A stretch of DNA of 28,945 nt from the IMG/VR virus record IMGVR_UViG_3300032006_002784, positions 1 to 28,945 of that record. The stretch is one strand, 5' to 3'. The position numbers and the translations under genes were made by a program. Every line of letters starts with the position of its first letter. Position 1 is the stretch's first letter. Positions 6,366-23,847 of the stretch are shown one piece after another. The notes under the pieces are model-generated. The model worked only from the letters and a program-made list of their open reading frames with translations. It ran no database searches and had not been told where the DNA came from. Origin of the DNA: a virus.

Positions 6366-6892
6366 AGCGGCGTACCCGTCTGGCTGCTGCCGCCCTGGAC
6401 ACCGCCATGTTTGTGGTCTTTTAGGCTCTTGCCTGCGCCGATCACATCCTCGTCACCCGTCACAGTGCCGGAGGCGGAAAGGTCGCCTTCGACCGTCACG
6501 TTCGCGCGAACGGACACCGTGCCGCCATCGGGCAAAGCGAGTGCCAGTTCGTGCGCTTCGGGATCGTAGGACAAGGTGGCGCCATCGCTGAACCGGACGA
6601 GCGCGCGCGGATCAGACGCCGGCAGGGGGAAGGCGTCGCAAGCCACGCCGCCGAGCGCTATGGCGGCACCGATATCGCCCGCCGGGCAAAGAAGCATCAC
6701 CTGTTCGCCCACAGCCGGGGGCAGCCAGATACGGATTGCGCCCAGGCGCGGCGCGATCCAGCGGATCGGAGGGGTTTCGACGCCATCGTCGATCCGGACC
6801 GTGCAGGTACCGCCCGCAAGATCGATCGCACTGACAACGCCATAGCGGATCAGTTCGTCGGGATCGGTCGGGTGGTCTTCGGGCGTTCGCAT
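6362..6892 (-). CDS. V: Baseplate spike protein V
   Basis: This 176-residue protein matches P2 gpV, the membrane-piercing trimeric spike. An N-terminal OB-like domain (about 20-95, with PPAVGEQVMLLCPAGD) is followed by a beta-helix-like repetitive stretch. The C-terminus carries DHKHGG, with the HxH pair H160/H162, then ends TGTPL. In P2 the HxH histidines of three chains bind the iron ion at the spike tip. The frame extends upstream to 6976, but the alignable protein starts at the ATG at 6892. No Shine-Dalgarno sequence precedes it. The centre of the late-promoter dyad lies 56 bp upstream, so the message may be leaderless. Confidence 0.92.
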   Translation of the reverse strand: MRTPEDHPTDPDELIRYGVVSAIDLAGGTCTVRIDDGVETPPIRWIAPRLGAIRIWLPPAVGEQVMLLCPAGDIGAAIALGGVACDAFPLPASDPRALVRFSDGATLSYDPEAHELALALPDGGTVSVRANVTVEGDLSASGTVTGDEDVIGAGKSLKDHKHGGVQGGSSQTGTPL

Positions 6893-6933
6893 GAGCGCAC
6901 CAGACACGGGCCGCGCGGCCTTCGCCAGGGGGC

Positions 6934-6962
6934 CGCGTTGTGCCCCCGGCAGGGACAACGCG
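6934..6962. promoter_or_regulatory. Late-promoter dyad 1 (Ogr/Delta-type site) upstream of V
   Basis: CGCGTTGT (6934-6941), 13 bases, then ACAACGCG (6955-6962) form a perfect 8-bp inverted repeat. The centre is 56 bp from the V start codon. Two further copies with the same arms and the same spacing lie at 10252 and 19390. P2-family late promoters carry an Ogr/Delta zinc-finger activator site of the form TGT-N12-ACA centred near -55. Here the spacing is TGT-N13-ACA. Confidence 0.7.
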
Positions 6963-6990
6963 GGCGTTTCCCGCAAACAGTGGAAGAGGC

Positions 6991-7224
6991 CTATTCAGGA
7001 GAAGAGGCTTCGGAATCAGCCGGATTGACGATTACACCGATCGCGATCTTGTGTTCCACGCCGGTCGCGACCTCCGCCACGCGGGCCTCGGTGGCGGCCT
7101 TGTCGTATTTTCCGGCCTCGGTGAGGCAGGCGTTGACCGCGCGGCGATGGGTGACCCCGGCATGGACGAACGTGACGGCGACAGTGCCGGCCTTCGCATC
7201 AAATTTGCCGATGGTGGTTTTCAT
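6991..7224 (-). CDS. Small phage protein of unknown function (77 aa)
   Basis: This 77-residue protein starts with a good ribosome binding site (AAGGAA, seven bases before the ATG). I do not recognise it. It begins MKTTIGKFDAKAGTVAVTFV and ends with an acidic tail (DSEASSPE). The stretch VTHRRAVNACLTEAGKYDKA is helical in character. No signal peptide or membrane segment is visible. It follows the tail fibre gene by 23 bases, in the place where other P2-like phages carry the tail fibre assembly chaperone (G). It could be part of the J-I-H operon and assist fibre assembly, but it shows no clear similarity to gpG. Confidence 0.65.
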   Translation of the reverse strand: MKTTIGKFDAKAGTVAVTFVHAGVTHRRAVNACLTEAGKYDKAATEARVAEVATGVEHKIAIGVIVNPADSEASSPE

Positions 7225-7247
7225 GACGGGTTCCTTCGCGATGGAGA

Positions 7248-8732
7248 TCAGCGGCCGACGGCGCGCCAGCGCACGGTGACCGGGCGGTTGAAATACTGGT
7301 CTGACTTGGCGCTATCGGCGGTGATCTGCGATCCTGTGGTGGTGGGATCGGCAAAGCAGATCACCGCAACGTTCCAGCCCGCGTTCGCGCCCTTGTTGGC
7401 GTTGCCGGAGATGTGGACCGTGGCCGCATCGGTGAATTCGATAGGGAAGGTGACGGCCGCAAATTGCACGTTGTAGCCCGTGCCAAGCACCACGGCGCCC
7501 CATTGTTCGATAACGAAGCCGCCGGCCCCATCCGGATATTTACGCCAATGCCCGTTCGCGTTGCTGCCCGACGAATGATAGTCCGCGATGTGCTGGGCAG
7601 GCGTCTTGCCGCGCCATAGGTCGGCATCGAGACCGGATCCGGAGCCATCCACCGAAACCAGCTTGGCCAGGACGTCGCCCGCCGTGTAGCTGTAGTAATT
7701 GAGCGGTGTGTAACCAAGCCGGCCGATGATGTCCGCGTACCAGGACCCCTGCTGCCCATCGAGCAGGTCGGCATCGAGGCCGGATCCGGAACCATCCACC
7801 GAAACGACTTTGGCCAGCACGTCAGCCGCAGTGTAGCTGTAGTAATTGAGCGGTGTGTAGCCAAGTCGGCCGATGATATCAGCATACCAGGACCCGTGCT
7901 GCCCATCGAGCATATCGGCATCGAGGCCGGAGCCCGAACCATCGTTGGATGAGCGCCACACGTCCGCGATGTTACCGTCCATCACGAGATAGCCTTGATC
8001 CACCGTGTCGATCGTGACTTTCAGGCGATAGGCGGGGCTCCACCCGATCTTGACGGTATTGCCCAACTGGCCGACGCCTGTACCCATTTGGACAGGAGTG
8101 TAACCAAGCCGTGCCGGGATGTTGGTATAGAAGGCTCCATGCTGGCCATCGAGCATATCGGCATCAAGACCGCTGCCCGATCCATCTTGCGCCAATAGCC
8201 AGCCAAGGATAGCGGCCCTGGCGCCGGACGGGGTCAGTGCGCGCAGGGCGTCGATGCCCGCTTGCGCTTCAACCGGGGTGGCCAGTTCCACCACGCCCTG
8301 CCTTTCGGTGGTGGCTGGCGGGTTGATGAAGCTGGCATCGCCAAAGGTGATCGCTGCCGCGTCGATATCGGTGAAGATCACGTCGACAGACAGAAGCGCG
8401 ATAGAGGCGGCGACCTTTTCGAGGATCGGCGCGGCCTGGCCGTAGATGGCGAACAGGGTGCCGTCCGCCAGATAGAGGCCGAAGGCGCGCAGCGAATAGA
8501 CATCGGCGCTTTCGTCCATGGCGGTGACGTGGATGGTATCGTTCGCCACCACGTCGCCAGCGATGGAGCCGGTGCGCTTCATTTCGCCGGCCAGCACCGT
8601 CATCGTAGGCGCGGGTACGATCGCGGTGGGGGACAGGCCGATCTGCGCGATGGTGACCGGCGCGGTACCGGTGTTCTGCGCGTTGACGATGGCGGCGCGC
8701 CCGGCGTTGGTGATCGTGATGGTGAAGGCCAT
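7248..8732 (-). CDS. H: Tail fibre protein H with internal tandem repeats
   Basis: This 494-residue protein sits directly after I, the place of the P2 side tail fibre gene. The N-terminal 150 residues (MAFTITITNAGRAAIV, then the DADVYSLRAFGLYLADG region) match the N-terminal fibre domain that docks on the baseplate. The middle has four copies of DGSGSGLDAD, two of them inside near-identical 49-residue units. The C-terminus (from about GHWRKYPDGAGGFVIEQWG to WRAVGR) resembles the gp53-like fibre tip domain. GGAG precedes the ATG. Fibre tips usually decide host range, so this end is the likely receptor-binding part. Confidence 0.88.
   Translation of the reverse strand: MAFTITITNAGRAAIVNAQNTGTAPVTIAQIGLSPTAIVPAPTMTVLAGEMKRTGSIAGDVVANDTIHVTAMDESADVYSLRAFGLYLADGTLFAIYGQAAPILEKVAASIALLSVDVIFTDIDAAAITFGDASFINPPATTERQGVVELATPVEAQAGIDALRALTPSGARAAILGWLLAQDGSGSGLDADMLDGQHGAFYTNIPARLGYTPVQMGTGVGQLGNTVKIGWSPAYRLKVTIDTVDQGYLVMDGNIADVWRSSNDGSGSGLDADMLDGQHGSWYADIIGRLGYTPLNYYSYTAADVLAKVVSVDGSGSGLDADLLDGQQGSWYADIIGRLGYTPLNYYSYTAGDVLAKLVSVDGSGSGLDADLWRGKTPAQHIADYHSSGSNANGHWRKYPDGAGGFVIEQWGAVVLGTGYNVQFAAVTFPIEFTDAATVHISGNANKGANAGWNVAVICFADPTTTGSQITADSAKSDQYFNRPVTVRWRAVGR
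7650..7943 (-). repeat. 147-bp tandem repeat, two full units plus a partial third, inside the tail fibre gene
   Basis: On the minus strand the codon for the first Asp of DGSGSGLDAD lies at 7943, 7796 and 7649, exactly 147 bases apart. Units 1 and 2 both encode a block running from DGSGSGLDAD through GRLGYTPLNYYSY to the VSV end, with only a few changes. The third copy diverges after DGSGSGLDADL. An isolated earlier copy of the motif begins at 8186. The period is a multiple of three, so gain or loss of units would keep the frame. Confidence 0.85.
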
Positions 8733-8747
8733 GGAGGCGGCTCCGGA

Positions 8748-9311
8748 TCAGGCGGCTAAGCATGGAAGGCGGGCGTAAGTGACAGCGCGACCCATGGCCC
8801 TGAGGCCGATGCGCCCGCGCGCCGAAAGGCCCACGGTGAAATCGAAATGGGATCGCGCCGGCTTGGTGCGGGCAACCTCCGCGATCACGCCCTCGATAAA
8901 GTCCGCGCTGGGAGAGGCATCACTTTGCCCGCCAAGCGTGACCGTGAGCGAGAACGTGTGTGGCGTCTCTGGCGGTGACTGTTCCCACCATTCGCGGATG
9001 ACGACGTTGCCGCCGAAGCTGTTGACCACATCGGTGACCGATTTCCGCGTGCCCTTGCGCCGCTGGATGGCGATTGCGGACGCCACGCGCGCGCGGCGGA
9101 TGTTCAGCGGCCAGCCGGAATCCCACTGATCGATGGACAGCGCCCAGGCGAGCCAGGGAAGCACGTCTTCCGGGCATTGCTGCGGCGACCAGATTTCACG
9201 AAAGGGCGTGTCGATCGCGCCAAGGCGGATCTGCGCCAGCAGATCGAGTGCGTGTTCGAGCGGGGTGGCATTAGGCGGTAGCAGAGAGCTGGTTGTGAGC
9301 GCGACGATCAT
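8748..9311 (-). CDS. I: Baseplate/tail formation protein I
   Basis: This 187-residue protein matches P2 gpI, a baseplate component linking J to the tail fibre. The opening LLPPNATPLEHALDLL and the segment LPWLAWALSIDQWDSGWP are family signatures. The frame extends upstream to 9428, but the ATG at 9311 overlaps the J stop as ATGA and starts at the usual N-terminus. It lies between J and H as in P2. Confidence 0.93.
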   Translation of the reverse strand: MIVALTTSSLLPPNATPLEHALDLLAQIRLGAIDTPFREIWSPQQCPEDVLPWLAWALSIDQWDSGWPLNIRRARVASAIAIQRRKGTRKSVTDVVNSFGGNVVIREWWEQSPPETPHTFSLTVTLGGQSDASPSADFIEGVIAEVARTKPARSHFDFTVGLSARGRIGLRAMGRAVTYARLPCLAA

Positions 9312-10210
9312 TCGCCCACGCCTCCATCGGTGATCGTCACGCTGGAGCAGTGGCCGGCCTGCTGGCGCGTGATCGGGATATCGGCGGGAGGACTGGCCAG
9401 TGCCACGTTCTGCACGCCTTCGGGGCACAGGGCGGCGATGATGCCGGCACGGGTCACGTCGCGGCCCAGGCGGCGCGCGTTGGCCTGATAGGTGGCAAGG
9501 CGCGATTGGGCGAGCGCCAGCACGATGGCGCGATCGGGGCCGGCGAAGAAGGTGAGCGTGGCGTCTATCGCGTAATCCACGATGCTTGCCGCCTGCACGG
9601 TGACGTGATCGGTCATCGGCCGCACGTTGTCATCTGTAAGTCGGGCTTCCACCGCCGCCAGCACGGCGGGCGCGGGCGTGCCGTCTCCGCTGCGCGAAAG
9701 CACGGTGACCACCACTTCGCCGGGATCGGAGCTGATGGCGGAAGCATCGTTCACATCGGCATCGGCGGACAGGGCGTGGAAGATATAGGCGCCTTCCGGC
9801 CCGGCCACCGAATAACCTTCGGGTGCGAGGACGATGCGGCGGCGGAAATCGTCATCGCTTTCCAGCACGGCGGGTGTGCCCGCTTCCGGAGCGGCCGGGG
9901 TAATGATGAAGCGTTCGACGCCGAACAGCGCGCCCAGATTGTCGAGATCCGCGCCAATGGCATAGGCGACCATCACCGCGCGCGCAGCATCGTTCATGCG
10001 CTGGCGCAGGCCCAGCTCGCGGTAGCTGAACAGTTCCACCAGTTTGACCAGGGGATCGCTTTCGACGATCGCGCTAAAGCCGGGCCATGCTGCGGCAAGC
10101 CAGGCGAGATTACTGGCGCGGATCGTCTTGAAATCCAGCGCCTCGATCACGTCGGGCGCGGGGAGGCGGGACAGATCGACCCCGGTGAAGCTGTCTGAAG
10201 CGATGGCCAT
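9308..10210 (-). CDS. J: Baseplate assembly protein J
   Basis: This 300-residue protein matches P2 gpJ (302 residues), a wedge protein of the baseplate. Diagnostic segments are LSRLPAPDVIEALDFKTI near the N-terminus, FSYRELGLRQRMNDAARAVM around residues 62-81, and the DDFRRRIVLAPEGYSVAGPEG region. It is the first gene of the J-I-H operon. No Shine-Dalgarno sequence is visible before the ATG at 10210. The shared late-promoter dyad is centred 56 bp upstream. Confidence 0.94.
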   Translation of the reverse strand: MAIASDSFTGVDLSRLPAPDVIEALDFKTIRASNLAWLAAAWPGFSAIVESDPLVKLVELFSYRELGLRQRMNDAARAVMVAYAIGADLDNLGALFGVERFIITPAAPEAGTPAVLESDDDFRRRIVLAPEGYSVAGPEGAYIFHALSADADVNDASAISSDPGEVVVTVLSRSGDGTPAPAVLAAVEARLTDDNVRPMTDHVTVQAASIVDYAIDATLTFFAGPDRAIVLALAQSRLATYQANARRLGRDVTRAGIIAALCPEGVQNVALASPPADIPITRQQAGHCSSVTITDGGVGE

Positions 10211-10251
10211 GCATCCACATCGGACGGCGGTGGCGATCTGCTCAACGCCCG

Positions 10252-10280
10252 CGCGTTGTTACCGAAATTCCGACAACGCG
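10252..10280. promoter_or_regulatory. Late-promoter dyad 2 (Ogr/Delta-type site) between J and the endolysin
   Basis: CGCGTTGT (10252-10259), 13 bases, then ACAACGCG (10273-10280). The centre is at about 10266, exactly 56 bp from the J start codon (10210, minus) and 56 bp from the endolysin start codon (10322, plus). One symmetrical site could therefore serve two divergent late promoters. Arms and spacing are the same as at 6934 and 19390. Confidence 0.7.
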
Positions 10281-10321
10281 GCCCCGATGCGGCGCGAAAT
10301 GCGATCCGCCAGCGTAGGGGC

Positions 10322-10879
10322 ATGCAAGACATCACCCCCCGCATCGCCCTGGAACTGATCTGCCATGAAGGCGTGGTCCGCGAAGCCTATCGCGACAGCG
10401 CGGGCGTGTGGACATGGAGCGTGGGCATCACCGACGCATCCGGCCACCGGGTGTTTCCGCGCTACAAGGACAATCCGCAACCGATCGACCGGTGCATCGC
10501 GGTTTACCTGTGGCTGTTGCGCACAAAATACCTGCCGCCGGTACTTGCGGCGTTCGGCGGGGCAGAGCCGACCGAGGCGCAGCTTGGTGCCGCCCTTTCG
10601 TTCCACTGGAATACCGGTGCGATCGCGCGGGCGAGCTGGATCAGGCGCTTCGTGGCGGGAGACATCGCGGGCGCGCGTGCTTCGATGCTCGATTGGGCGA
10701 AGCCTGCGGAACTTCTGGCGCGACGTAAGCGTGAGCAGGCGCTGTTCTTCGACGGGGTGTGGAGCGGCGACGGAACGGCGCTGATCTACGAGGTTGCGAA
10801 GCCGCGCTACGTCCCGGTTGGCCCGCGCCGAGCGGACATTCGCCCGATGGTCGCATTGGCCATGGAGGATCGGCCATGA
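10322..10879 (+). CDS. Endolysin, glycoside hydrolase family 24 (T4-type lysozyme)
   Basis: This 185-residue protein is a muramidase of the T4 lysozyme fold that cleaves peptidoglycan at lysis. The catalytic triad pattern E-x8-D-x5-T is present as E16, D25 and T31 (HEGVVREAYRDSAGVWTWSVG), the same spacing as T4 E11-D20-T26. The segment GAALSFHWNTGA (around residue 90) is also typical. No signal peptide or SAR anchor is visible, so release should depend on a holin. The frame is open from 10256, but the ATG at 10322 is chosen because it places the E-D-T motif at the usual distance and lies 56 bp from the late dyad. Its stop overlaps the next ATG as ATGA. Confidence 0.92.
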   Translation: MQDITPRIALELICHEGVVREAYRDSAGVWTWSVGITDASGHRVFPRYKDNPQPIDRCIAVYLWLLRTKYLPPVLAAFGGAEPTEAQLGAALSFHWNTGAIARASWIRRFVAGDIAGARASMLDWAKPAELLARRKREQALFFDGVWSGDGTALIYEVAKPRYVPVGPRRADIRPMVALAMEDRP

Positions 10880-11253
10880 GCTGGTGGGGTGATAAGGCGC
10901 CGCGCTGGGCAATCCTGGCTGCTACCCTGCTGCTTGCGCGACTGGCACTGGCATTCGTGCTGGATCTGGGGAGCAAGGCCCGATCGGAGCAAGTGCGCGC
11001 CAGACTGGAGACCGGGCGCGCTGATGCCGCCGTCGCTTCCGGACAGGACGCGGTCGAAGCCGTGGGCTGTGCCGCGTCCGGCGAAACCATCATCGATTCC
11101 ATCAACGGGGAGAATGAGCGTGCCATCCGTTCCGCACAGGGCGCGCATGCGCCTGTGGATCCTGCTGTCCATGATGCTGGTGTTGCCAGCCTGTGTCGCT
11201 TCGCCACCTATCGCAGCACCAAGGACTGCATGCAGTTCACTCCTGCCCGATGA
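10876..11253 (+). CDS. Probable inner-membrane spanin (Rz-like)
   Basis: This 125-residue protein has one N-terminal membrane segment (about residues 11-29, WAILAATLLLARLALAFVL). A charged helical region rich in Ala, Glu, Arg and Gln follows (about 32-90), as expected for the periplasmic coiled coil of an i-spanin. I recognise it by architecture and context rather than clear sequence similarity. It overlaps the endolysin by ATGA. Its last 140 bases overlap a lipoprotein gene in another frame, the nested arrangement typical of Rz/Rz1. With Rz1 it would fuse inner and outer membranes at the end of lysis. Confidence 0.75.
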   Translation: MSWWGDKAPRWAILAATLLLARLALAFVLDLGSKARSEQVRARLETGRADAAVASGQDAVEAVGCAASGETIIDSINGENERAIRSAQGAHAPVDPAVHDAGVASLCRFATYRSTKDCMQFTPAR

Positions 11254-11458
11254 CTGGCTGCGAGGCGTGGCTGGCGCGCCGCTGCCCGGCGTGCGCGAAG
11301 TGGCGGACTGGATATCGTTCGGATCGGCCCAGACCGGCCAGCTTGATAAGGCGAACGACCGGTATCGCGCGGCAATCGGCATCATCGCGCGCTGCGAATT
11401 GCGCGACCGCGAGGCCGTGAAGCGCGCAAGCACCCGAAAATTTCCTGGCCTGTTTTGA
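11114..11458 (+). CDS. Probable outer-membrane spanin lipoprotein (Rz1-like)
   Basis: This 114-residue protein begins inside the Rz-like gene in the +2 frame. GGGGAG precedes the ATG. It carries a lipoprotein signal peptide: positively charged residues 9-13, a hydrophobic core, and the lipobox LPAC with C27 as the acylated cysteine. The mature part is longer than classical Rz1 (about 40-60 residues) and ends in a charged helix. It therefore looks like an extended o-spanin. Translation could also begin at M12. Confidence 0.75.
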   Translation: MSVPSVPHRARMRLWILLSMMLVLPACVASPPIAAPRTACSSLLPDDWLRGVAGAPLPGVREVADWISFGSAQTGQLDKANDRYRAAIGIIARCELRDREAVKRASTRKFPGLF

Positions 11459-11471
11459 CCGGAGCGTTCCG

Positions 11472-11738
11472 ATGAAGGACCTTTTTACCTGGATCAAGGA
11501 TACCCTGTGGGCGCCATCGCGCCGCCCGTTCGCGATCACGCCGAGCGATGACGATCCGCTGCCCCTTCTGCCCAAGGGCATCTACGTGGGCACTGGTGGC
11601 GACGTGACACTTCGCGGCGTGGATAGCGAAGAAGACGTGACCTATAAAAACTTTCCATCGGCGAGCTTTATTGCCGTGCGAGCCAAATTTGTGCGCGCCA
11701 CCGGTACTACCGCCGCCGACCTGATCGCGGAGGCCTGA
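11472..11738 (+). CDS. Spike base protein (RCAP_Rcc01079-like)
   Basis: This 88-residue protein resembles the small spike base proteins known from the Rhodobacter capsulatus gene transfer agent and from many alphaproteobacterial phages. The pattern is FAITPSDDDPLPLLPKGIYVGTGGDV, shown here in two parts: FAITPSDDDPL and KGIYVGTGGDVTLRG. A later part, YKNFPSASFIAVRA followed by VRATGTTAADLI, also fits. This is a compact beta domain that sits under a tailspike. It begins 13 bases after the spanin gene and ends two bases before the tailspike ATG, which supports the role. Confidence 0.8.
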   Translation: MKDLFTWIKDTLWAPSRRPFAITPSDDDPLPLLPKGIYVGTGGDVTLRGVDSEEDVTYKNFPSASFIAVRAKFVRATGTTAADLIAEA

Positions 11739-11739
11739 C

Positions 11740-14043
11740 ATGCGTCCCTCCGGCTCCATGGGCTTTTCCCCCGAAGCGGCGGATAGCTGGCTTGTCACTC
11801 GCGGCCTTCGCCTGACGTCTGCCCAGGTCGCCACCACGCGCATTCCGGCGGCTGTCATGTCGTTCCGGACGATAGGTTGCACCACGGAAGGCGATGGTGG
11901 CGGCGGGTTATTCGTGCGCGTCGTCGCCGAACCGGCGCACGCCGGCAAACGGCAGGACGCGACCGGTGCTTGGTTCGAACTGGACGAAATGCTCGTGGAC
12001 CCGCGCATGTTCACCGGGGTTCCCGACGCTGCGAACGCGGACGGCAGCGACGCTGCAGGATTCACCGACAACACCGCCGCAATCAACAACGCGCTCTGGT
12101 ATGCCTCGCTGCGCGGCGCGTCGGCGCGCCCGGCCAGCACCTCCAAGATTGACGGCGCTTGGGCGGCGGGCGCTCGAATTGTCATCTTCCGGCCCGGCCC
12201 AACGCGCCAGAAGTCCGTCTATGGCGTCACCGGCCGATGCCAGATTTATCCCTGCTCTACCACGGTGATCGGACGCGGCGCGGAAGTGCGCGCCATGACG
12301 GGCTTCGCCAAGGCGGCGGCGGCGGATGCCGTTTCCGCCGTGTTTGAAAGCTCTACGGCACTGGAAGTTGCTGCCGGCGCCAAGAGCGTCCGCAATGTCC
12401 TGTTTGTCCTGCAAGGCAACATCAACTGCAACAGGATCGCTGATGTCGGTATTCAGGGTCACGTGGGCAACAACTGGAAGGTCATGGGAGAGAGCGGAAA
12501 AGTGCTCTTTCCGAAGCTGAACGGTGTCCGGTTCGGCCTGCCCGCCAACGGCGAGTCTATGTTCGAGTGCGACACCATCAAGTTGGATGTGCAGTTTTTC
12601 CGGACCGACACGGACACCGGCGGAACGAACGACCCCAACAGCGTCGGCATCGAATATGCGAAATGCACGGACAGCAAGATTGAGCAATGCACCGTGGTCG
12701 GCGGCCGGCGCGGTTTCCTCTCGCGATCCGGCGATAACACGTTCGACAAGTGCCATCCCTGGACTACGCCTGGTTGCGGCCCGATGGTGGCAGGGTTCAC
12801 AAACTATTCCAGCGGCGTGAAGTACGACAATTGCGTGGCCGATGGGATGCAGAGCATGGGCGTCGCCTCGATCGGCGGCTCTAACGGCAAGGTGGCGGCG
12901 TTCGAGTGCTATGGCTCTGCCGAGATTTCGAACCCCACGTTCCTCCACTCGGCCAACCTTGCGCCCGATGGCGGTTCCTATGCAGGCGAGGCTAACCTCG
13001 TCTACTCGACGATCGCGCCCGGTACGGGCACCGTTTCCGTCACCGGCACGGTGATGATCAAGAAGCTCAACACCGCACCGAAAATGGGGGCGCTTCTCAA
13101 CGGCGATCAGCGCGTCATCCGCATGTCGGCCCAGCTCGTGCTGCTGAATGGCGCGGACTATGACCGCACGCTGGGCGCGCTCCCGCTTGGCATCACCCGC
13201 AACGCCGCGCCGAACCGCGATTTCAGCATGTGGCAGCGCGGTAATGGTCCGAACTCGTGCATTGGCGCGGCCGGTCAAGTCATCCGCTTCTGTGATCGGT
13301 GGTGGACGCAAACCGGCTCCACCACCGGAGCGCGCACGCTCGGGCGCGAATGGATCACGGATGCCAACGCCGCAGGCATTTCGCACGCCTCCGTGCTCAC
13401 CGTCGAACAGACGGCCGATCCCGGCGATGCGCAATACTTCAACCTGTGCGCCACCCTGCCACCAGAAGACCTGATGGACGCCGCCGGGAAGTACATGACG
13501 GTCGCCTTGAAGGCGCGCCTTGTCAGCGGTGCCGTTGATACCGGCTTTTCGGCCAGCGCCTATTGGGTCACCAGCAACGGCATCAATGGCGCCACTGCCA
13601 ATTCGCCCGCGTCGCCGGTCCTGCCGCTCCCGGCGGTTACCAGCGCATTCCAGCTCTACCTGCTTCGCTTTCTGGTCCCCTCGATGGACGGCAAGGTGAT
13701 TGACCCCAACTATGCCAAGTTGCAGGTGCAGATCGCGCTGCCCAAGACGGGCATCTGGAAGATGCAAATCGGCGAAATGCTCCACTCGTTTGGCGACGTG
13801 TGGCAGGATTTTCAGGTTCCATCGCGCCAGGATGTCGAGAACGAAGCGCTGCGCTTTTTCGAGCGGGTCAACTTCCGCACGATCAACGGTTCGCGCGGGG
13901 TCAGTTACAAGCGAAAGGCCAAGACGCCAGCTCTCACTCTTTCGGCTGGGCCGGCGCTGGTCGGACAGTGGAACCTGTCAGACGTTGTGGTGTCACACAA
14001 TGCCAGCACCGACGCCGTGCTGGACGTGCTCGCCGAACTCTGA
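11740..14043 (+). CDS. Tailspike protein, predicted beta-helix with C-terminal binding domain
   Basis: This 767-residue protein is a probable tailspike. Residues about 100-130 (FTGVPDAANADGSDAAGFTD, then NTAAINNAL) match the start of pectate-lyase-like right-handed beta-helices in phage spikes. The following 300 residues have the Gly/Asn/Val-rich repeating character of a parallel helix (CTVVGGRRGFLSRSGDNTF). From about residue 490 a second part begins with NRDFSMWQRGNG and CDRWW, as in carbohydrate-binding domains of phage fibres. The FFERVNF motif near residue 707 resembles fibre C-terminal modules. Whether it cleaves polysaccharide is unknown, because I cannot place catalytic residues. It follows the spike base gene by one base, and the two are probably co-translated. 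Confidence 0.82.
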   Translation: MRPSGSMGFSPEAADSWLVTRGLRLTSAQVATTRIPAAVMSFRTIGCTTEGDGGGGLFVRVVAEPAHAGKRQDATGAWFELDEMLVDPRMFTGVPDAANADGSDAAGFTDNTAAINNALWYASLRGASARPASTSKIDGAWAAGARIVIFRPGPTRQKSVYGVTGRCQIYPCSTTVIGRGAEVRAMTGFAKAAAADAVSAVFESSTALEVAAGAKSVRNVLFVLQGNINCNRIADVGIQGHVGNNWKVMGESGKVLFPKLNGVRFGLPANGESMFECDTIKLDVQFFRTDTDTGGTNDPNSVGIEYAKCTDSKIEQCTVVGGRRGFLSRSGDNTFDKCHPWTTPGCGPMVAGFTNYSSGVKYDNCVADGMQSMGVASIGGSNGKVAAFECYGSAEISNPTFLHSANLAPDGGSYAGEANLVYSTIAPGTGTVSVTGTVMIKKLNTAPKMGALLNGDQRVIRMSAQLVLLNGADYDRTLGALPLGITRNAAPNRDFSMWQRGNGPNSCIGAAGQVIRFCDRWWTQTGSTTGARTLGREWITDANAAGISHASVLTVEQTADPGDAQYFNLCATLPPEDLMDAAGKYMTVALKARLVSGAVDTGFSASAYWVTSNGINGATANSPASPVLPLPAVTSAFQLYLLRFLVPSMDGKVIDPNYAKLQVQIALPKTGIWKMQIGEMLHSFGDVWQDFQVPSRQDVENEALRFFERVNFRTINGSRGVSYKRKAKTPALTLSAGPALVGQWNLSDVVVSHNASTDAVLDVLAEL

Positions 14044-14062
14044 CGACGTACCAAACAACTTC

Positions 14063-14107
14063 GCTTCCGTTCCTCTTACTCCTTACGGCGAAAGGGCGAA
14101 CGGAAGC
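14063..14107. terminator. Candidate bidirectional terminator between convergent operons
   Basis: GCTTCCGTTC (14063-14072) is the exact reverse complement of GAACGGAAGC (14098-14107). The loop contains a smaller CCTT/AAGG stem. It lies 20 bases after the tailspike stop and 90 bases beyond the S stop on the other strand, where the two operons converge. There is no long T-run, so termination is inferred only from position and structure. Confidence 0.4.
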
Positions 14108-14195
14108 TCTTAAGGCAATGGATGCCCTTGCCGCCCACTGATCCTGCCCGGCGCTCCTTTGGCGGTGGCGATATTTGGCCTGAAAAGAGCTCGGA

Positions 14196-14657
14196 TCAAC
14201 GCTCGATCGACTGCAGTGCCCGTTCCATGATCAGGTCGCGATCGTCTGGCGAAATACCCAGAAGCCGTCTGGCGGCATAGCGGGTGCGGATAGAGTTAGG
14301 AATGCGGCGGTCCACGAGTGCTTCACCGCCGAAATGATTTTCTGCAGCGGTCTGCGCGACGCGCGGTTTGAAGCCGATCTCCAGTTCATCGGGCCGGACA
14401 CGCATGGCGGTGTTGCGGACGAGTTCGATCTTCGGGAACATGCGGCCCTTGCGCTTGCGGATACGGCCACGCCGATCGCGTTGCGATCTGCGTGGCGGCA
14501 TTGGTGTGCCATCGGGTTGCACATTGTCGCGCACGCGCCGGGCGTTCGACTGTCGCAAGGCTCTGGCGATAGCGCGGGTGACCTTGAGCCTTTCCCCCGG
14601 CGCCAGGCGCGCGAGATAGCCGGCGAGCCAAGGCTCGATCGCGCGAAGATCTTTCAT
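14196..14657 (-). CDS. S: Tail completion protein S (virion morphogenesis protein)
   Basis: This 153-residue protein matches P2 gpS, needed to complete the tail and join it to the head. The pattern ARRVRDNVQPDGTPMPPRR followed by a basic run and MFPKIELVRNTAMRV is typical of the family. The ATG overlaps the R stop as ATGA. It is the last gene of the O-N-M-L-X-holin-R-S operon. Confidence 0.92.
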   Translation of the reverse strand: MKDLRAIEPWLAGYLARLAPGERLKVTRAIARALRQSNARRVRDNVQPDGTPMPPRRSQRDRRGRIRKRKGRMFPKIELVRNTAMRVRPDELEIGFKPRVAQTAAENHFGGEALVDRRIPNSIRTRYAARRLLGISPDDRDLIMERALQSIER

Positions 14658-15145
14658 ACCGGGTCAAGCGGCGCGATGCGCGTACCCTGATGCCAGATCG
14701 AGAGGAGCGGACCTTCGTTTGGCCGCAGAGGAACGTCATCGGGGAACAGAGTGGCCGGTTCCTCCACCGCTTCCAGCAGCCAGCCACCGTCGGGCGCCGG
14801 TGAAGCGCGTACCGCCTCATCCAGCGGCAGGGTGATCTGCACGTCCCACGACCGGTCATCGAGAACATCGGCTTCGAAGGTGAAGCCCGCAGCGGAATTG
14901 GCGGCAAGCAGATCCGGCTGATACCGGCGCAGCCAGTCCACCACCACGAACATCAGCACATCGGGATCGTGCGTGAACGCTGTGGCGATCACGGTGAGAT
15001 CGTAGGACCACATGAAACCGCGTTGCTGGGTTTGTGGCGCACGGATCCGCCCCTTTTCAACGAACATGGCGAGCCGAGCGGGGTCGGTGGCGAATTCCGG
15101 CAGGATCGCGGCGATTGCAGCGCGCAGGCTGTCCGGCTTCTTCAC
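14654..15145 (-). CDS. R: Tail completion protein R
   Basis: This 163-residue protein matches P2 gpR. It begins VKKPDSLRAAIAAILPEF, close to the P2 start MLKPDSLRRAL, and continues through FVEKGRI, VDWLRRYQPDLLA and GFTFEADVLDD. I chose the GTG start at 15145 because it overlaps the stop of the upstream small gene as GTGA and places KPDSLR at the N-terminus. The frame also has an ATG at 15178. R and S act together in tail maturation. Confidence 0.9.
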   Translation of the reverse strand: MKKPDSLRAAIAAILPEFATDPARLAMFVEKGRIRAPQTQQRGFMWSYDLTVIATAFTHDPDVLMFVVVDWLRRYQPDLLAANSAAGFTFEADVLDDRSWDVQITLPLDEAVRASPAPDGGWLLEAVEEPATLFPDDVPLRPNEGPLLSIWHQGTRIAPLDPV

Positions 15146-15273
15146 GGCCGATCGCGCCCGGTGCGATGCCGGTGGCATTCATAGTGCCAGGTGTGGCGCA
15201 GCGCGGCCGCCAGCGCGGCCAGGGCAACGAGAATGCTGATCGCCGTGCAGGCAATAATGACCGCCCTATCCAT
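15142..15273 (-). CDS. Small single-membrane-span protein (43 aa)
   Basis: This 43-residue protein has one hydrophobic segment (about residues 4-25, AVIIACTAISILVALAALAA) followed by a His/Arg-rich tail. It overlaps the holin-like gene upstream (TAG at 15266-15268) and the R start downstream (GTGA). P2 carries its lysis genes in this interval, so a lysis-timing role such as antiholin is plausible but unproven. No family is recognised. The tight overlaps argue that it is really translated. Confidence 0.6.
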   Translation of the reverse strand: MDRAVIIACTAISILVALAALAAALRHTWHYECHRHRTGRDRP

Positions 15274-15667
15274 GGCCGGCTCCGTCCGAAGGGGTGTCTG
15301 GCGTGGAAGAGGCGGTGCCCATGCCAAGGCGGCGGCGGAACAGCCAGGCCGCGCCATCGAGCAGCAAGGGAAAGCCGATGAAACCCTGCGCCAGGGCAAG
15401 CAGCACCGCCGCGACGGGGTTGAGGTGATAGTAGCTGACAAGGACCACCGAAACGGTTGCGAAGGCGGGCAGGGCCGAGACTTCGCAAATGGCGAGCCAG
15501 CGTCGACGGCGCGCCCAATGTTCGGCCAGGACAGGATCCGTCGGCGGATCGCCCGCCGTGCCATAGAGCATGATGCCAAGCCGGGCGACGACGACAGTAG
15601 TGCTGGCGAACAGCGAGGCCATCCACCAGAAAAAGAATTCGCGCCAGTCGGAGAGGTCGTTGCCCAT
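15266..15667 (-). CDS. Probable holin, three predicted membrane segments
   Basis: This 133-residue protein has three hydrophobic segments: about 11-34 (FFWWMASLFASTTVVVARLG), 56-81 (WLAICEVSALPAFATVSVVL) and 83-109 (PVAAVLLALAQGFIGFPLLL). The C-terminus is polar. Size and layout suit a class I holin of the LydA/superfamily III type. It occupies the place of P2 Y, the holin gene, between X and R. I infer holin function from topology and position, since similarity to a named family cannot be established by eye. Its endolysin is encoded on the other strand about 5 kb away. Confidence 0.65.
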   Translation of the reverse strand: MGNDLSDWREFFFWWMASLFASTTVVVARLGIMLYGTAGDPPTDPVLAEHWARRRRWLAICEVSALPAFATVSVVLVSYYHLNPVAAVLLALAQGFIGFPLLLDGAAWLFRRRLGMGTASSTPDTPSDGAGHG

Positions 15668-15671
15668 GAGC

Positions 15672-15890
15672 CTAGTTCCAGAGGTTTACGTTTTCGAGTG
15701 TGGCGGCATTGCTGGCGGGTGGATCGGGAAGCGTGACCATCGTGCCTTCGGCCAGGATCACGCCGGAATCGGCCAGTCCGCGGTTGAGCTCGTAGGCCTG
15801 TTCGACGATGCCGCCGGCGGTGGTGCCAAGCGTGCGCCAGCAGATCAGGTCCAGCGTATCGCCCTGGCAGGCGCGGACGACGGAGGGCAT
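15672..15890 (-). CDS. X: Tail protein X (LysM-like)
   Basis: This 72-residue protein matches P2 gpX (67 residues), a small LysM-type tail protein. The motif RACQGDTLDLICWRTLG near the N-terminus, YELNRGLADSG in the middle and G-TMVTLPDPP at the end follow the family. Its ATG overlaps the L stop as TGATG. It is in P2 order, after L. Confidence 0.93.
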   Translation of the reverse strand: MPSVVRACQGDTLDLICWRTLGTTAGGIVEQAYELNRGLADSGVILAEGTMVTLPDPPASNAATLENVNLWN

Positions 15891-16363
15891 CAGATCAGGT
15901 CCACAGCGACGCGGGAAACGCCGAGAATATCGCGTACCGCCTGGGTGGCGCGCTTGTGATAATCGGCGGCGGTCAGGTACTGGTTGCCCGCACGGTTCTG
16001 CGCTTCACCGGTGGCGGAGGTATCGGGAGGCTGATCGAGCAGTTCGGCAGCGGTGGCGAACGTGACCGCCCGCGTCCACAGCACGGTCAAGCGATGGCGG
16101 GAGCCGATCTTCCGTTCGGGTTCGATTGCCGCCAGCGAGGCCATGCCATCGGCTTCGTGCGTTGCGCGCCAGGCGGAGAGTTGCCCTTCGATCGTGAGGA
16201 GGCCGCCCTCGATCGCGCCGACCAGGCGCGCATGCGTGACGGGCGTGCCCAATTGCAGGGTTTCGCGCAGAGCGTTGCAATCGATTTCGGGCCACCAGCC
16301 ATCGCCCGGAACGATCGATGCCGGGGGCGAGGCAGGCGAGGGCGGGACGGCGACGAACGACAT
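15890..16363 (-). CDS. L: Head completion/stabilization protein L
   Basis: This 157-residue protein matches P2 gpL, the head completion protein that closes the filled capsid. Diagnostic parts are DGWWPEIDCNALRETLQLG and YLTAADYHKRATQAVRDILG. The frame extends to 16384, but the ATG at 16363 has AAAGGA seven bases upstream. In mature particles gpL probably binds the portal region after packaging. Confidence 0.92.
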   Translation of the reverse strand: MSFVAVPPSPASPPASIVPGDGWWPEIDCNALRETLQLGTPVTHARLVGAIEGGLLTIEGQLSAWRATHEADGMASLAAIEPERKIGSRHRLTVLWTRAVTFATAAELLDQPPDTSATGEAQNRAGNQYLTAADYHKRATQAVRDILGVSRVAVDLI

Positions 16364-16480
16364 GGAAGGTCCTTTGGCACGCACGATATCGGGAAGAAGT
16401 GGGGGGTGAGGGCGCGGACCCTGTGGCTGATGCCGCAGATCCGTTCCCGCCCCCCGGCGCGGGTGGCGCAGCTCGTAAAA

Positions 16481-17206
16481 TTATCCGGACGCGAGCTTTT
16501 TGCGTTCGCGCTCAAGGCCATCGATCAGTTTCTTGACGCCGCATCCTTCGTTCAGTTCCAGGGCGCGATGGAAAGCGGCCAGCGCCGCATCGATCAGGGC
16601 GCCCCTGCCGCCGGCGGACGCGCTTTCCGCTTCCGGATCGAAGGCATCGGCACGCGCCTTCAGCGCAATCCCAATGGCCTTCTTGAGCTTGGCCGAGACC
16701 TGCTGGTGCATGTCATGGTCCGTGGTGAGCGCGTCGATCGCGAGGAGCGTTTCAAGGTCCACGGTTGGTGTGGGGGTGAGCCCGGCGGTCGCCACTTCTT
16801 CCGCGATCAGCACGGCGGGCTTGCGCAGATATCGTTCGGGCAGCGCGATACCGGTGCCGAGTACGTAGGCGGCGAGCGGAAGCGCCAGCGCCCAATCGGC
16901 GATGTCGATTGACCAGACCAGCACGGTTCCGACGATCTCGTCCTGCGTGCCCGCATTGCCCGCCATCGCGCCTTCAACCCATGGGCGATAGCGGCCGATC
17001 ATTTCCCGCTTGGCGGCGATCTTGCGCTCGATCGACTGGATGTTGCGCAGGGTGGACAAGTCCTGCCCCAGCGCGGCCAGCAGGAACTGGTACTCCGTGG
17101 CGACAGGCCCTTCATCGGGCATGGGCGACGCGCCGGGCACATCGGGATCCCCCGTGGCGATGGCGGCAAGTGAGCGGAGAAGGTGAGCGCGTGCCGGGGA
17201 GTTCAT
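16481..17206 (-). CDS. M: Terminase small subunit M (endonuclease subunit)
   Basis: This 241-residue protein matches P2 gpM (about 247 residues), the terminase subunit that works with P in cutting at cos. The patterns NIQSIERKIAAKREMIGRYR and GTVLVWSIDIADW...ALPLAAYVLG are typical. The N-terminus is short and Ala-rich. AAGGAA precedes the ATG at 17206. The gene lies after N as in P2. The 117-base gap between M and L holds a short GC-rich hairpin (CCCGC/GCGGG near 16446) and nothing else I can support. Confidence 0.92.
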   Translation of the reverse strand: MNSPARAHLLRSLAAIATGDPDVPGASPMPDEGPVATEYQFLLAALGQDLSTLRNIQSIERKIAAKREMIGRYRPWVEGAMAGNAGTQDEIVGTVLVWSIDIADWALALPLAAYVLGTGIALPERYLRKPAVLIAEEVATAGLTPTPTVDLETLLAIDALTTDHDMHQQVSAKLKKAIGIALKARADAFDPEAESASAGGRGALIDAALAAFHRALELNEGCGVKKLIDGLERERKKLASG

Positions 17207-17227
17207 CGGCGGGTTTCCTTGGTTGGT

Positions 17228-17256
17228 TCCCCTCTCCCGGCGATGGAGAGAGGGGA
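17228..17256 (-). other. Hairpin downstream of the major capsid gene
   Basis: TCCCCTCTC (17228-17236) pairs exactly with GAGAGGGGA (17248-17256), with an 11-base loop. A second stem, GCCGGCT (17268-17274) with AGCCGGC (17288-17294), lies nearer the N stop. Both are in the 93-base N-M gap. There is no T-run. Like the hairpin after FII, they follow one of the most highly expressed structural genes and may stabilise that mRNA. Confidence 0.5.
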
Positions 17257-17299
17257 GGGCGATCGATGCCGGCTATCCCGCGCAGCGAGCCGGCTGTGG

Positions 17300-18331
17300 T
17301 CAGACGTTGCGTTCCTTGATGTTTTCCACAAGGCAGGCGTAGTCGAGATCCTCGATGACGTAGGCCTCGTTCGACGAGTTGTAGTCGGTCACCTGATCGA
17401 GTTCCGGTTCGTCCCTGATCAGGCGGCGGCGCTTGCCGTCCTGGTAGTAGATCGAGAGGTTGTCGAAGCGCGTGATGAACACCGTGCCCGCCGGGAAGCC
17501 GGGCACCTGATAGGCCGGCAGCCCGCCGAGGCGCTTGGTGGACATGATCATGTCGCGCGCGATCTGTTCGGTCGGCGCTTCGGCGCTGTTGATCAGCGGA
17601 AAATACTTGTCGTGAAGCAAGTCGCCCGAGACCAGCACCACGAGTTCGGTATCTTCCTTCGCCCATTCGGCCAGCAGAGACTGCTTGGCATCCCAGACCA
17701 GCGCATCGAGCGTGGCGTAATCGCCATCGGAGCCATAGGTGACTTTGCCGGCTTCCTTGCCACCGACAATGGCCGATAGCACGCGCGGCGCGTTTTCGGC
17801 CCGCATCTTCGCCAGCCACCCGACGTTGACGTCCTGCAGCTTGGGATTGGCGACGCGATCGGTCTGTGCGGCGGCGTGCGTGCCGTTGAACCCGATCAGG
17901 ATCCGGTCCAGCGCCACGCGCTTGACGTTGTTATCGCGCCACTTGGTTTCGAAGGTGGGGAACTTCGCCCACTTGTCGACCTTGGCGTACTTGATCGCGA
18001 CATCGAAATTGGTCTGCTTGCATTCATAGCTCCGCCCGTCCTGGGCAGAGGGATCGATGCCGGTGCGGCGGGTGCCGCCAGCGGTGTTGGTGCGGCCGGC
18101 GATGGTGCTGCCGATGCCAAGGCCAAGCAGTTCCCCGGTCAGTTCATCGACCGGTTCGATGTTGATCTTCGACAGGAACTCGCTGGATTCCTGCACGCGC
18201 TGTTCCAGCTTCTGCTGGACCGATGGTTCGACCGTGAACTTGGCGGTGCCGGCCGTGGCGGGATCGATGCCGTTGAGCAGGGCGATCTGCGAAACCATCG
18301 CATAGAATTTGGCCCGGGTAGTGTTCTTCAT
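17300..18331 (-). CDS. N: Major capsid protein N
   Basis: This 343-residue protein matches P2 gpN (357 residues). The N-terminal block (TRAKFYAMVSQIALLNGID, then AKFTVEPSVQQKLEQ and SSEFLSKINI) aligns closely with P2. In P2 the O protease removes the first 31 residues, and a similar cleavage before KFTVEPSV is likely here. The C-terminal part with DLLHDKYFPLIN and QIARDMIMSTKRLGGLPA also fits. GAGGA precedes the ATG. Confidence 0.95.
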   Translation of the reverse strand: MKNTTRAKFYAMVSQIALLNGIDPATAGTAKFTVEPSVQQKLEQRVQESSEFLSKINIEPVDELTGELLGLGIGSTIAGRTNTAGGTRRTGIDPSAQDGRSYECKQTNFDVAIKYAKVDKWAKFPTFETKWRDNNVKRVALDRILIGFNGTHAAAQTDRVANPKLQDVNVGWLAKMRAENAPRVLSAIVGGKEAGKVTYGSDGDYATLDALVWDAKQSLLAEWAKEDTELVVLVSGDLLHDKYFPLINSAEAPTEQIARDMIMSTKRLGGLPAYQVPGFPAGTVFITRFDNLSIYYQDGKRRRLIRDEPELDQVTDYNSSNEAYVIEDLDYACLVENIKERNV

Positions 18332-18397
18332 GAAATGGTCCTCATGATTGGGAGGGGGACAGCGCGGGCGGGAATGGGGCGGGCGGGAGCGGGGCGA

Positions 18398-19282
18398 TCA
18401 GCAATCGGTCCGTTCGACGTTGCCGCCGCCGGTGGCGGGCGGACGCTGGACGAAATTGCTGGCGGGGCTGCGATCGAGGGTTTCAGCCATGCCGGCGATG
18501 GTGGCTTCGATCCTGCCGAACCGATCGTTGCTGGCCCGAGCCATGGCATCGACGCTGGTGGCCATCTGGGCCATCATCGCGCCGAAGGCGGCAAAGCCGG
18601 CCGGATCAGCCGCAAGCGCGGCAGGGGATGCGGACGGGACGGAGGCAGGCGCGGCGGCGGGAGCGGTAGAGACCCGTTCCGGTTGCGGGGTTGCCGTGAA
18701 ACGATCGAAGAAGCCCTTGATCGACGCGAAAACGCCGGTGGGATCGGCATCCGTCTGCGTTTCGGCAAAGACGTCCGCCGGGATCTCGTATGCCTGGCAG
18801 AACAGGTTTGCCTTGTCCTGCTTGCGCGAGGCGAAGAGGTCCGGGTGCTGGGCGGCGAATTCCAGCGTCTGCGTGCCGAACGACGCGGGCGAGTCCGTGA
18901 CCGCCATGCCCACGAGATAGGCCTTGCCGGTCCCGCGGCAGTTCTGGCCGATCTCGATGCTGCTGAAGACCTTCTGCTTCTTCTGGTTGAGTGCGCGCAG
19001 CGATTCGAGCGGATTGATCGCCGCGAACAGCGCCATCACGCGCTGTGTGGCGTTGCCCACGGGCAGATCGACCTCCTCGGCCTTCACGGCCGTGACATCG
19101 CCCAGCATATCGAACGGGCCGCCGGGGATCAGGCCCCGGAAATGTTCGAGATTGACGCGCACGCCATAGAGCTGGGGGTTGAAGGTTTCCGCGCAGTCCA
19201 TGATGTCCTGCCGCGTGATCTTGCGGCCATCGGTGGTGTCGCCTTCGACTGCTACTCGGAAAAAACGCGGCTGTTGCGCCAT
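18398..19282 (-). CDS. O: Capsid scaffolding protein and protease O
   Basis: This 294-residue protein matches P2 gpO, an N-terminal serine protease fused to a C-terminal scaffold. The protease triad is conserved: D18 in GDTTDGR, H47 in VNLEHFRG and S108 in FSSIEI, corresponding to the Asp19/His48/Ser107 I recall for P2. An Ala/Pro-rich linker (about 205-240) leads to a helical C-terminus that would bind N. The frame is open to 19414, but the ATG at 19282 gives the P2-like N-terminus and has GGAG nearby. It is first in its operon. Unlike V, J, P and the endolysin, it has a real leader, because the late dyad centre lies 122 bp away. Confidence 0.94.
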   Translation of the reverse strand: MAQQPRFFRVAVEGDTTDGRKITRQDIMDCAETFNPQLYGVRVNLEHFRGLIPGGPFDMLGDVTAVKAEEVDLPVGNATQRVMALFAAINPLESLRALNQKKQKVFSSIEIGQNCRGTGKAYLVGMAVTDSPASFGTQTLEFAAQHPDLFASRKQDKANLFCQAYEIPADVFAETQTDADPTGVFASIKGFFDRFTATPQPERVSTAPAAAPASVPSASPAALAADPAGFAAFGAMMAQMATSVDAMARASNDRFGRIEATIAGMAETLDRSPASNFVQRPPATGGGNVERTDC

Positions 19283-19389
19283 CGGGGATACTCCGTCCTC
19301 TGATCGTTTTGCTGACCTGCCCTGGCGGGGACGGGCGACCGGCTGACGAGTGGCAGAGGACAGGTTGGCGCGGCGCTTCGCAACGCGGG

Positions 19390-19418
19390 CGCGTTGTGCC
19401 CGCAGGTGCGACAACGGG
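19390..19418. promoter_or_regulatory. Late-promoter dyad 3 (Ogr/Delta-type site) between O and P
   Basis: CGCGTTGT (19390-19397), 13 bases, then ACAACGGG (19411-19418), with one mismatch in the outer arm. The centre is 57 bp from the P start codon. A TAGCGT hexamer (19448-19453) sits where a -10 element would be if transcription began at the P ATG. The endolysin has CAGCGT at the matching place. An extra CAACGCG arm at 19381-19387 could belong to a second, leftward site for O. Confidence 0.65.
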
Positions 19419-19460
19419 GAAGGGTTAGGCGCGGGCGCCGAGGCTCATAGCGTGCCGGGT

Positions 19461-21341
19461 ATGGAGCTGCCGCCCGACTTCGGAAACGACAACACGACGG
19501 ATGCTGCCGGCGGGGATGCACCTGCCGGTGGCGCCGATGGCGTGCCATCGATCCCGGCGATCGTGGCGCGGCGGATTGAGGCGCGTTCCCTGTACTGGCG
19601 TGGCTGGGCGATCAGCCAGATCGCGGAGGAGCTGGATCTACCCTATTCGACGGTGGCGAGCTGGAAAACGCGCGGGCGATGGGATGATGCCAGCGCGATG
19701 CAGCGGGCCGAGGAGGGCACGCTCGAGCGGTACCTGATGCTGGTGGCCAAAGATCGCAAAACCGGCAGCGACTTCAAGGAAATCGACCTGCTGGGCCGGC
19801 AGTTCGAGCGGTTCGACCGGCGGCGCAAGTATCAGGACGGCGGCAACGAGGCCGACCTGAACCCCGATCGCGCCAACGGCGCGAAGGCAACCAACGCCCG
19901 GAAGGAAAAGGCACGCAACCGCGTCACGCCCGAGATGGTCGCGGCGCTGCGCGCGGACTTCGAAGCGAACCTTTACGGGCATCAGGAGACCTGGCTTTCC
20001 ACGACGCACCTGCGCACGCGGATGCTGCTGAAAAGCCGGCAGATCGGGGCGACCTGGTATTTCGCGCGTGAACGACTGCTGGTGGCGCTGGAGACCGGCA
20101 AGAACCAGATCTTCATTTCGGCGAGCCGGGCGCAGGCCAACATCTTCCGCAACTACATCGTGCAATGGGTGCAGAAGGTTTGCGGGATTGCGCTGAAGGG
20201 CGATCCGATCGTGATCCAGCGTGGCAGCGGCGACGAAAGCGCCGCCGAAGCGCAGGAGCCGGTCGAGCTCTATTTTCTGGGTACGAACTATCGCACGGCA
20301 CAGGGATATCACGGCGACGTCATCATCGACGAGTGCTTCTGGATTTATGGCTTCGAGGAGCTGTTCAAGGTCGCCAGCGCGATGGCGACGCAGAAGCAGT
20401 ACACGATCACGCTGTTTTCCACGCCCAGCACGCTGGCCCACGAAGCCTATCCGATGTGGTGCGGCGACCGGTACAACCGGAGGCGCGCCAGGGCGGACAA
20501 GGTGCGGATCGAGATCGGGCACGAAGCCTTGCGCGGCGGCGCGATCGGCCCGGATGGCATCTATCGCCAGATCGTTTCGCTCGATGACGCCATCGCGGGT
20601 GGCTATGACCTGATCGACCGGGCGCAGCTTGTGCTGCAATATGCCGTCGACGAATTCGAGAACCTGTTCGGCTGTGTTTTCCTGGATGACAGCCAGAGCA
20701 TGTTTCCGTTCCAGATCATGCGCCGGTGCATGGTGGATAGCTGGGACGTGTGGCGGGATTTCCAGCCCTATGCCTTACGGCCCTACGAAGGCGAGGTGTG
20801 GCTGGGGTACGATCCCAACGCCAGCGAGAACGGCACGGGTGACGATGCCGCGCTGGTGGCGGTTGCCGCGCCGACCAAGCCGGGCGGCAAGTTCCGCGTG
20901 CTGGAAAAGCTACGGCTGAAGGGCAAGGACTTCGAAGGGCAGGCCGAGGCGGTGAAGGCGATGGCCGGCAAATATACCGTGACCCGCATTGCCATCGACA
21001 CCACGGGCGCGGGCAAGGCGGTGCACCAGCTCGTGAGCAAGTGGTTCCCGACCGCCGAAGCCATCCATTATTCGGTGCCGGTGAAATCGGCCATGGTGCT
21101 GAAGGCCAAGAACGTGATCGCCAACGGCCGCCTGGAATTCGACGCCGGGTGGATGGACGTGATGCAGGCCTTCATGGCGATCCGCCCGGAAATCACCAAG
21201 CACGGCGTTTCCTATGTCGCGAGCCGGGCTGGCGGCGTGGGCCATGCCGATCTGGCGTGGGCGATCATGCACGCGCTCTATTTCGAACCGTTGGACAGCA
21301 GCGAGCCTGTCGGCGGTGGTTCTACCGTGGAGATCTTCTGA
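19461..21341 (+). CDS. P: Terminase large subunit P (ATPase and nuclease)
   Basis: This 626-residue protein matches P2 gpP, the packaging motor. An HTH-like segment at about residues 47-70 (GWAISQIAEELDLPYSTVAS) resembles the N-terminal DNA-binding part of this family. The ATPase follows, with SRQIGATW (192-199) as a divergent Walker A and VIIDE (287-291) as Walker B with catalytic E291. The C-terminal nuclease shows D451 (GYDPNAS), D513 (AIDTTGAG) and D597 (GHADLAW). The ATG at 19461 has no Shine-Dalgarno sequence. The frame opens further upstream, but that part would run through the late dyad. Its stop overlaps the Q start as TGATG. Confidence 0.94.
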   Translation: MELPPDFGNDNTTDAAGGDAPAGGADGVPSIPAIVARRIEARSLYWRGWAISQIAEELDLPYSTVASWKTRGRWDDASAMQRAEEGTLERYLMLVAKDRKTGSDFKEIDLLGRQFERFDRRRKYQDGGNEADLNPDRANGAKATNARKEKARNRVTPEMVAALRADFEANLYGHQETWLSTTHLRTRMLLKSRQIGATWYFARERLLVALETGKNQIFISASRAQANIFRNYIVQWVQKVCGIALKGDPIVIQRGSGDESAAEAQEPVELYFLGTNYRTAQGYHGDVIIDECFWIYGFEELFKVASAMATQKQYTITLFSTPSTLAHEAYPMWCGDRYNRRRARADKVRIEIGHEALRGGAIGPDGIYRQIVSLDDAIAGGYDLIDRAQLVLQYAVDEFENLFGCVFLDDSQSMFPFQIMRRCMVDSWDVWRDFQPYALRPYEGEVWLGYDPNASENGTGDDAALVAVAAPTKPGGKFRVLEKLRLKGKDFEGQAEAVKAMAGKYTVTRIAIDTTGAGKAVHQLVSKWFPTAEAIHYSVPVKSAMVLKAKNVIANGRLEFDAGWMDVMQAFMAIRPEITKHGVSYVASRAGGVGHADLAWAIMHALYFEPLDSSEPVGGGSTVEIF

Positions 21342-23843: not shown

Positions 23844-23847
23844 ATGA
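23818..23847 (+). promoter_or_regulatory. Possible nine-codon leader ORF coupled to the ATPase gene
   Basis: ATG at 23818 opens a frame encoding MQSTNGFIQ whose TGA (23845-23847) overlaps the ATPase ATG (23844-23846) as ATGA. AAGG lies about nine bases upstream of this ATG. The ATPase start itself has no clear ribosome binding site. Translation of the leader could deliver ribosomes to the ATPase start. The evidence is only the overlap and the ribosome-binding-site difference. Confidence 0.25.

Follow-up and report, generated by a model that had tools for sequence, protein, structure and literature searches.

Predicted leaderless late mRNAs at a fixed distance from Ogr-type dyads in a P2-like phage contig and its relatives

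Late transcription in phages P2, P4, 186 and PSP3 is activated by the Ogr/Delta/B proteins at dyads with TGT and ACA halves; the sites of P2, 186 and PSP3 were too imperfect to be described by a regular expression and were taken from annotation and by eye. In the GenBank record of P2, transcription of the V operon starts at base 10308, which is the first base of the V ATG, and the activator site of the PV promoter is centred 55.5 bp from that start. V alone is annotated as leaderless in P2, while P, O and F have leaders. The P leader is ~23 nt long in both P2 and 186, and the leaderless trait is therefore not universal. In P2, O and P diverge from promoters that share a single activator site. 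PMC4633059, with reference to Christie and Calendar 1985, names P2 as one of a small number of sources from which leaderless genes are known in E. coli.

In Fels-2 (Felsduovirus), the annotated P and V ATGs lie 55.5 bp from dyads with an N12 spacer, and the O and FI starts are found at 87.5 and 81.5 bp from dyads. For phage Smp131, an excerpt of PMC3931495 describes promoters PP', PO', PJ' and PV', with J and V in separate operons. The promoter positions published for Smp131 did not coincide with dyads in its record, and this phage was set aside as evidence on spacing. For phiRSY1, an excerpt of PMC5694545 places TGTTGT-N13-ACAACA at -50 to -90 from the start codons, and gives an N13 dyad for phiRSA1 also. 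The excerpts of these two late-promoter accounts do not mention leaderless transcripts, and a literature search returned nothing direct on leaderless mRNAs in connection with Sphingomonas or Ogr, or on phage 186 late promoters. In Zymomonas mobilis, a member of the Sphingomonadales, the order of the host, 119 of 2675 pairs of transcription start and gene are leaderless (PMC7566282), which makes leaderless translation plausible in the host group.

The 28,945-bp contig of a P2-like sphingomonad phage studied here (the window) was searched on both strands for the pattern CGCGTTGT-N13-ACAACGSG, and exact dyads were found at positions 6934-6962, 10252-10280 and 19390-19418, the same three that had been picked out in a preliminary description. 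Because the dyads are palindromic they match on both strands, the dyad at 19390-19418 matching on the minus strand with one mismatch. With up to three mismatches allowed, the whole window gave seven matches, as against a mean of 1.02 and a maximum of 6 in shuffled sequence, where none of 100 shuffles reached seven. The first dyad, CGCGTTGT-N13-ACAACGCG, is centred on 6948 and is the putative late activator site of the V operon (V ATG 6892, minus strand). The second (centre 10266) is a putative bidirectional site for J and the endolysin, with 56 bp to the start codon on either side, and the third (centre 19404) a putative bidirectional site for O and P, 57 bp from the P ATG and 122 bp from the O ATG. 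The distances from dyad centre to ATG were thus 56 bp for V, J and the endolysin and 57 bp for P, as first reported.

The TGT...ACA halves upstream of late operons are as in Ogr/Delta-type P2 late promoters, and the dyads look like late activator sites of this type, a reading that the preliminary description had proposed and that the comparisons below support. By position alone, they fit the P-Q, O and V/J structural operons of a P2-like phage. The geometry at V resembles that of P2 PV, the O/P dyad is arranged like the shared site of P2, the spacings are like those of Fels-2 P and V, the separate J and V operons and the assignment of promoters to genes are as in Smp131, and the N13 spacer is as in phiRSY1 and phiRSA1. 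The window differs from P2, P4, 186 and PSP3 in its N13 rather than N12 spacer, in the extended CGCGTTGT half-sites and in the lack of an activator gene inside the contig; Fels-2 is enterobacterial, has an N12 spacer and carries J as an internal gene.

Gene identities for V, J, the endolysin, P, O and Q were assigned with PHROGs profiles. Four genes are predicted leaderless first genes, all with an ATG start codon: the baseplate assembly gene V (6362-6892, minus strand), followed by W, FI, FII, E, T and U; the baseplate gene J (9308-10210, minus strand, ATG at 10210), first in J-I-H; the endolysin gene (10322-10879, plus strand, ATG at 10322), first in a rightward operon; and the terminase ATPase gene P (19461-21341, plus strand, predicted leader 0-1 nt), which precedes the portal gene Q. 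The computed Shine-Dalgarno (SD) duplex energies were -2.8, -0.9, 0.0 and +0.1 kcal/mol, respectively, compared with ~-5 to -9.5 kcal/mol for O, N, M, L, H, FI, FII, T, U, Q and others, so that the preliminary claim of four genes lacking SD sites among genes that mostly have them was borne out. The internal genes R, S and X also have weak SD sites, and SD absence alone is therefore not decisive. A useful control is the scaffold gene O (18398-19282, minus strand), which the preliminary description had not listed: it diverges from P across the same dyad, at 122 bp, and has a predicted leader of ~65 nt with the SD sequence ggag (-7.3 kcal/mol).

Several other open reading frames of the window were noted. 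The endolysin gene lies outside the O operon and heads a rightward operon (10322-14043) with orf11472 and a 767-aa ORF (11740-14043). At the position of H is a tail-fibre-like ORF (7248-8732) with repeated DGSGSGLDADxLDGQ units. Beyond Q and a DNA methylase-like ORF lies a 652-aa ORF (23844-25802) that by eye resembles an AAA ATPase of the OLD type, and may be a defence gene; an ORF at 26897-27523, starting MCNLYRLRS, resembles the SRAP/YedK type by eye.

Relatives of P were collected from viral contigs and from named genomes, among which Novosphingobium and other sphingomonads were nearest; relatives of J were collected too. Spacing was counted for operon heads with a TGT-N12-14-ACA dyad upstream, with the start nearest 57 bp picked by rule and O treated under the identical rule as a control. 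Among the relatives with such a dyad, 84 of 85 distinct P heads had their start codon at 55-60 bp from the dyad centre, 40 of 45 V heads at 55-59 bp and 46 of 49 J heads at 56-58 bp. The same rule placed the O start at 55-60 bp in 0 of 85 cases, the O distances ranging from 63 to 306 bp (sd 29). A count of ATGs made without regard to genes gave 75 at offsets 55-60 across 195 clustered dyad sides, where ~19 were expected (mean 3.2 per offset); a further peak at 48 bp was attributed to a CATGGT-type -10 element. The start codon was ATG in 107 of 109 non-redundant heads. SD sites were present in 3-6% of heads, in 24% of the heads' own shuffles and in 84-93% of O, N, FI and FII genes (heads versus internal genes, p = 3e-51). 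An ATG at 55-60 bp on both sides of one dyad, as at J and the endolysin, was rare, being found at five of 58 J dyads (the window included), one of 72 P dyads and one of 47 V dyads.

The position of the -10 element was also examined. A -10-like AGCGT sequence lies at 10311-10315 in the endolysin promoter and at 19449-19453 in the P promoter (both plus strand), in each case ending in a T 49 bp away from the dyad centre; at P, CATAGCGTG is conserved in relatives. From this T to the A of the ATG there are 7 bp in the endolysin promoter and 8 bp in the P promoter, in agreement with the earlier remark that the one extra base in P matches its 57-bp spacing. V and J of the window have poor -10 matches. 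In relatives, the main conserved positions beyond the dyad were an A at +46 and a T at ~+50 from its centre. Across the 38 P heads that have a TAGCGT-like hexamer, the distance from the dyad to the -7T had a standard deviation of 0.47 bp, and total spacing correlated with the distance from -10 to ATG (r = 0.87), so that the variation in length sits between these two. The -10 element predicts a transcription start ~57 bp from the dyad centre, which would put the A of the ATG at +1 to +3 in these heads, with one at +4.

Such a geometry is what would be expected of leaderless or near-leaderless transcription, and a normal leader with an SD site would be hard to reconcile with it. The most serious competing account keeps the Ogr-type late promoters and supposes that transcription starts a few to ~20 bases upstream of the ATG, giving short leaders that lack SD sites and are translated independently of them. 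The 23-nt leaders made from the P promoters of P2 and 186 are a precedent, and leadered mRNAs without SD sites are also translated in Alphaproteobacteria. The predicted +1 nevertheless falls within two bases of the ATG, the spacing of the ATG is fixed within ~5 bp over the 109 non-redundant heads, which short leaders would not lead one to expect, and the start of P2 V is annotated at the ATG itself. Short leaders are thus considered an unlikely explanation.

Many heads without a TGT dyad carry another inverted repeat at the same place, built from CATTTGGA, TTTGGAGAGG, ATCGGGCGAGA, TCCTGTATAA, GGGTGTGG or GGTGTAA and their complements. A comparison of J, V and P heads with and without a TGT dyad was confounded by these repeats, and a search for inverted repeats that was blind to the dyad sequence was therefore made. 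An inverted repeat scoring at least 8 was present at 54.5-61 bp in 32% of heads, compared with 2-6% of control windows; when the comparison of genes with and without a dyad was repeated, true no-dyad genes proved to be few. The half-sites of P, J and V matched at 8.5 of 10 positions within a phage and at 5.6 of 10 between phages (permutation p <= 5e-4). In eight loci the half-sites are far from TGT/ACA, at the same position, and are common to V, J and P of each phage but differ from one phage to another; they may represent a diversified Ogr-operator specificity.

No ogr gene was found in the window, which is an incomplete 28,945-bp contig. The Ogr_Delta zinc-finger family (PF04606) was found above cut-off in 19 of 20 related records, and among 20 records selected largely for their other half-site types 16 had an ogr gene, the four without one being among the shorter contigs. 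Similarity between Ogr proteins correlated with similarity between half-sites (Mantel r = 0.49, p = 0.0002, uncorrected for phylogeny). The simplest reading would be a change in the specificity of the activator at a constant distance to the start codon.

These data also bear on the idea that the dyads are operators or structural elements, such as repressor sites or terminators, that have nothing to do with late activation, the spacing being a by-product of gene packing. They are indeed near-perfect intergenic palindromes. However, no terminator-like hairpin with a T-run was found at any of the three window dyads, a single weak terminator-like match at 19284-19300 lying away from them, and no sigma-70-like promoter was found beside them; two of the three lie between divergent genes. 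P, J and V keep their spacing whereas O does not, the half-sites are common to the operons of one phage, and the positions match those of the P2 late promoters, all of which makes this idea very improbable. That translation really begins further downstream, at start codons with SD sites of their own, and that the alignment of the ATGs is a coincidence is scarcely credible, even though the first 30 residues of P are poorly conserved among relatives, since J and V relatives align from about residue 1 at the predicted ATG, the annotation of Fels-2 P and V uses these ATGs, and ATG is enriched at these offsets in the gene-blind count.

One annotated start was found to disagree with this spacing. 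The P gene of KS14, annotated at 24693, begins with a GTG that falls within the promoter, at just 21 bp from the dyad centre; the likely start is an ATG in the same frame, 57 bp from the dyad.

The explanation we favor is that the dyads are binding sites for the phage's own Ogr/Delta-type zinc-finger late activator, which, bound ~57 bp upstream, would recruit the host RNA polymerase to promoters with a weak -10 element and no recognizable -35. The distance from activator to start being fixed, the first transcribed base would be the A of the ATG or lie at most two bases ahead of it, and V, J, the endolysin and P would be translated from mRNAs with leaders of 0-2 nt, while the divergent O and the genes further along each operon would mostly use SD sites. 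Activation of Ogr type from dyads at a fixed distance, yielding leaderless V, J, endolysin and P mRNAs, is considered highly probable. Binding of Ogr, the actual transcription starts and leaderless translation in the window phage are what we infer from the dyads, their spacing, the -10 position, the SD absence, the conservation of these features and the Ogr genes of relatives, all of which are present in the sequences themselves. The core proposal of the preliminary description, leaderless late mRNAs, is supported by the geometry, which predicts initiation at the ATG or no more than 2 nt from it, and by the spacing, SD absence and -10 position being conserved in many relatives, where a lack of the dyad and its spacing would have spoken against it. 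Its view that this is unusual for a P2-type phage did not hold, since P2 V has its annotated start on the ATG and a leaderless P2 gene features in PMC4633059; for V, that view is wrong.

The layout appears to recur in most of the P2 relatives examined, which would turn a lone observation in P2 into a family-wide design. That V is leaderless in P2 was already known; the predicted extension to P, J and the endolysin, and the conservation across the family, are new. With moderate confidence, leaderless late operon heads can be regarded as a conserved trait and the default in much of the P2 family, with a fixed geometry and diversifying activator specificity, and with P2 as a partial exception; virion and packaging operons would then be translated by a leaderless route.

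Leaderless mRNAs are usually regarded as rare in proteobacterial phages. If the packaging, baseplate and lysis operons are leaderless across P2-like phages, translation of virion genes would be tied to the state of the ribosome pool, through 70S initiation and initiation-factor levels, and this dependence, if true, would be a second and testable layer of late control. The leaderless geometry would also correct start-codon annotation, as for KS14 P, and the paired diversification of Ogr and dyads would offer many natural activator-operator pairs for study.
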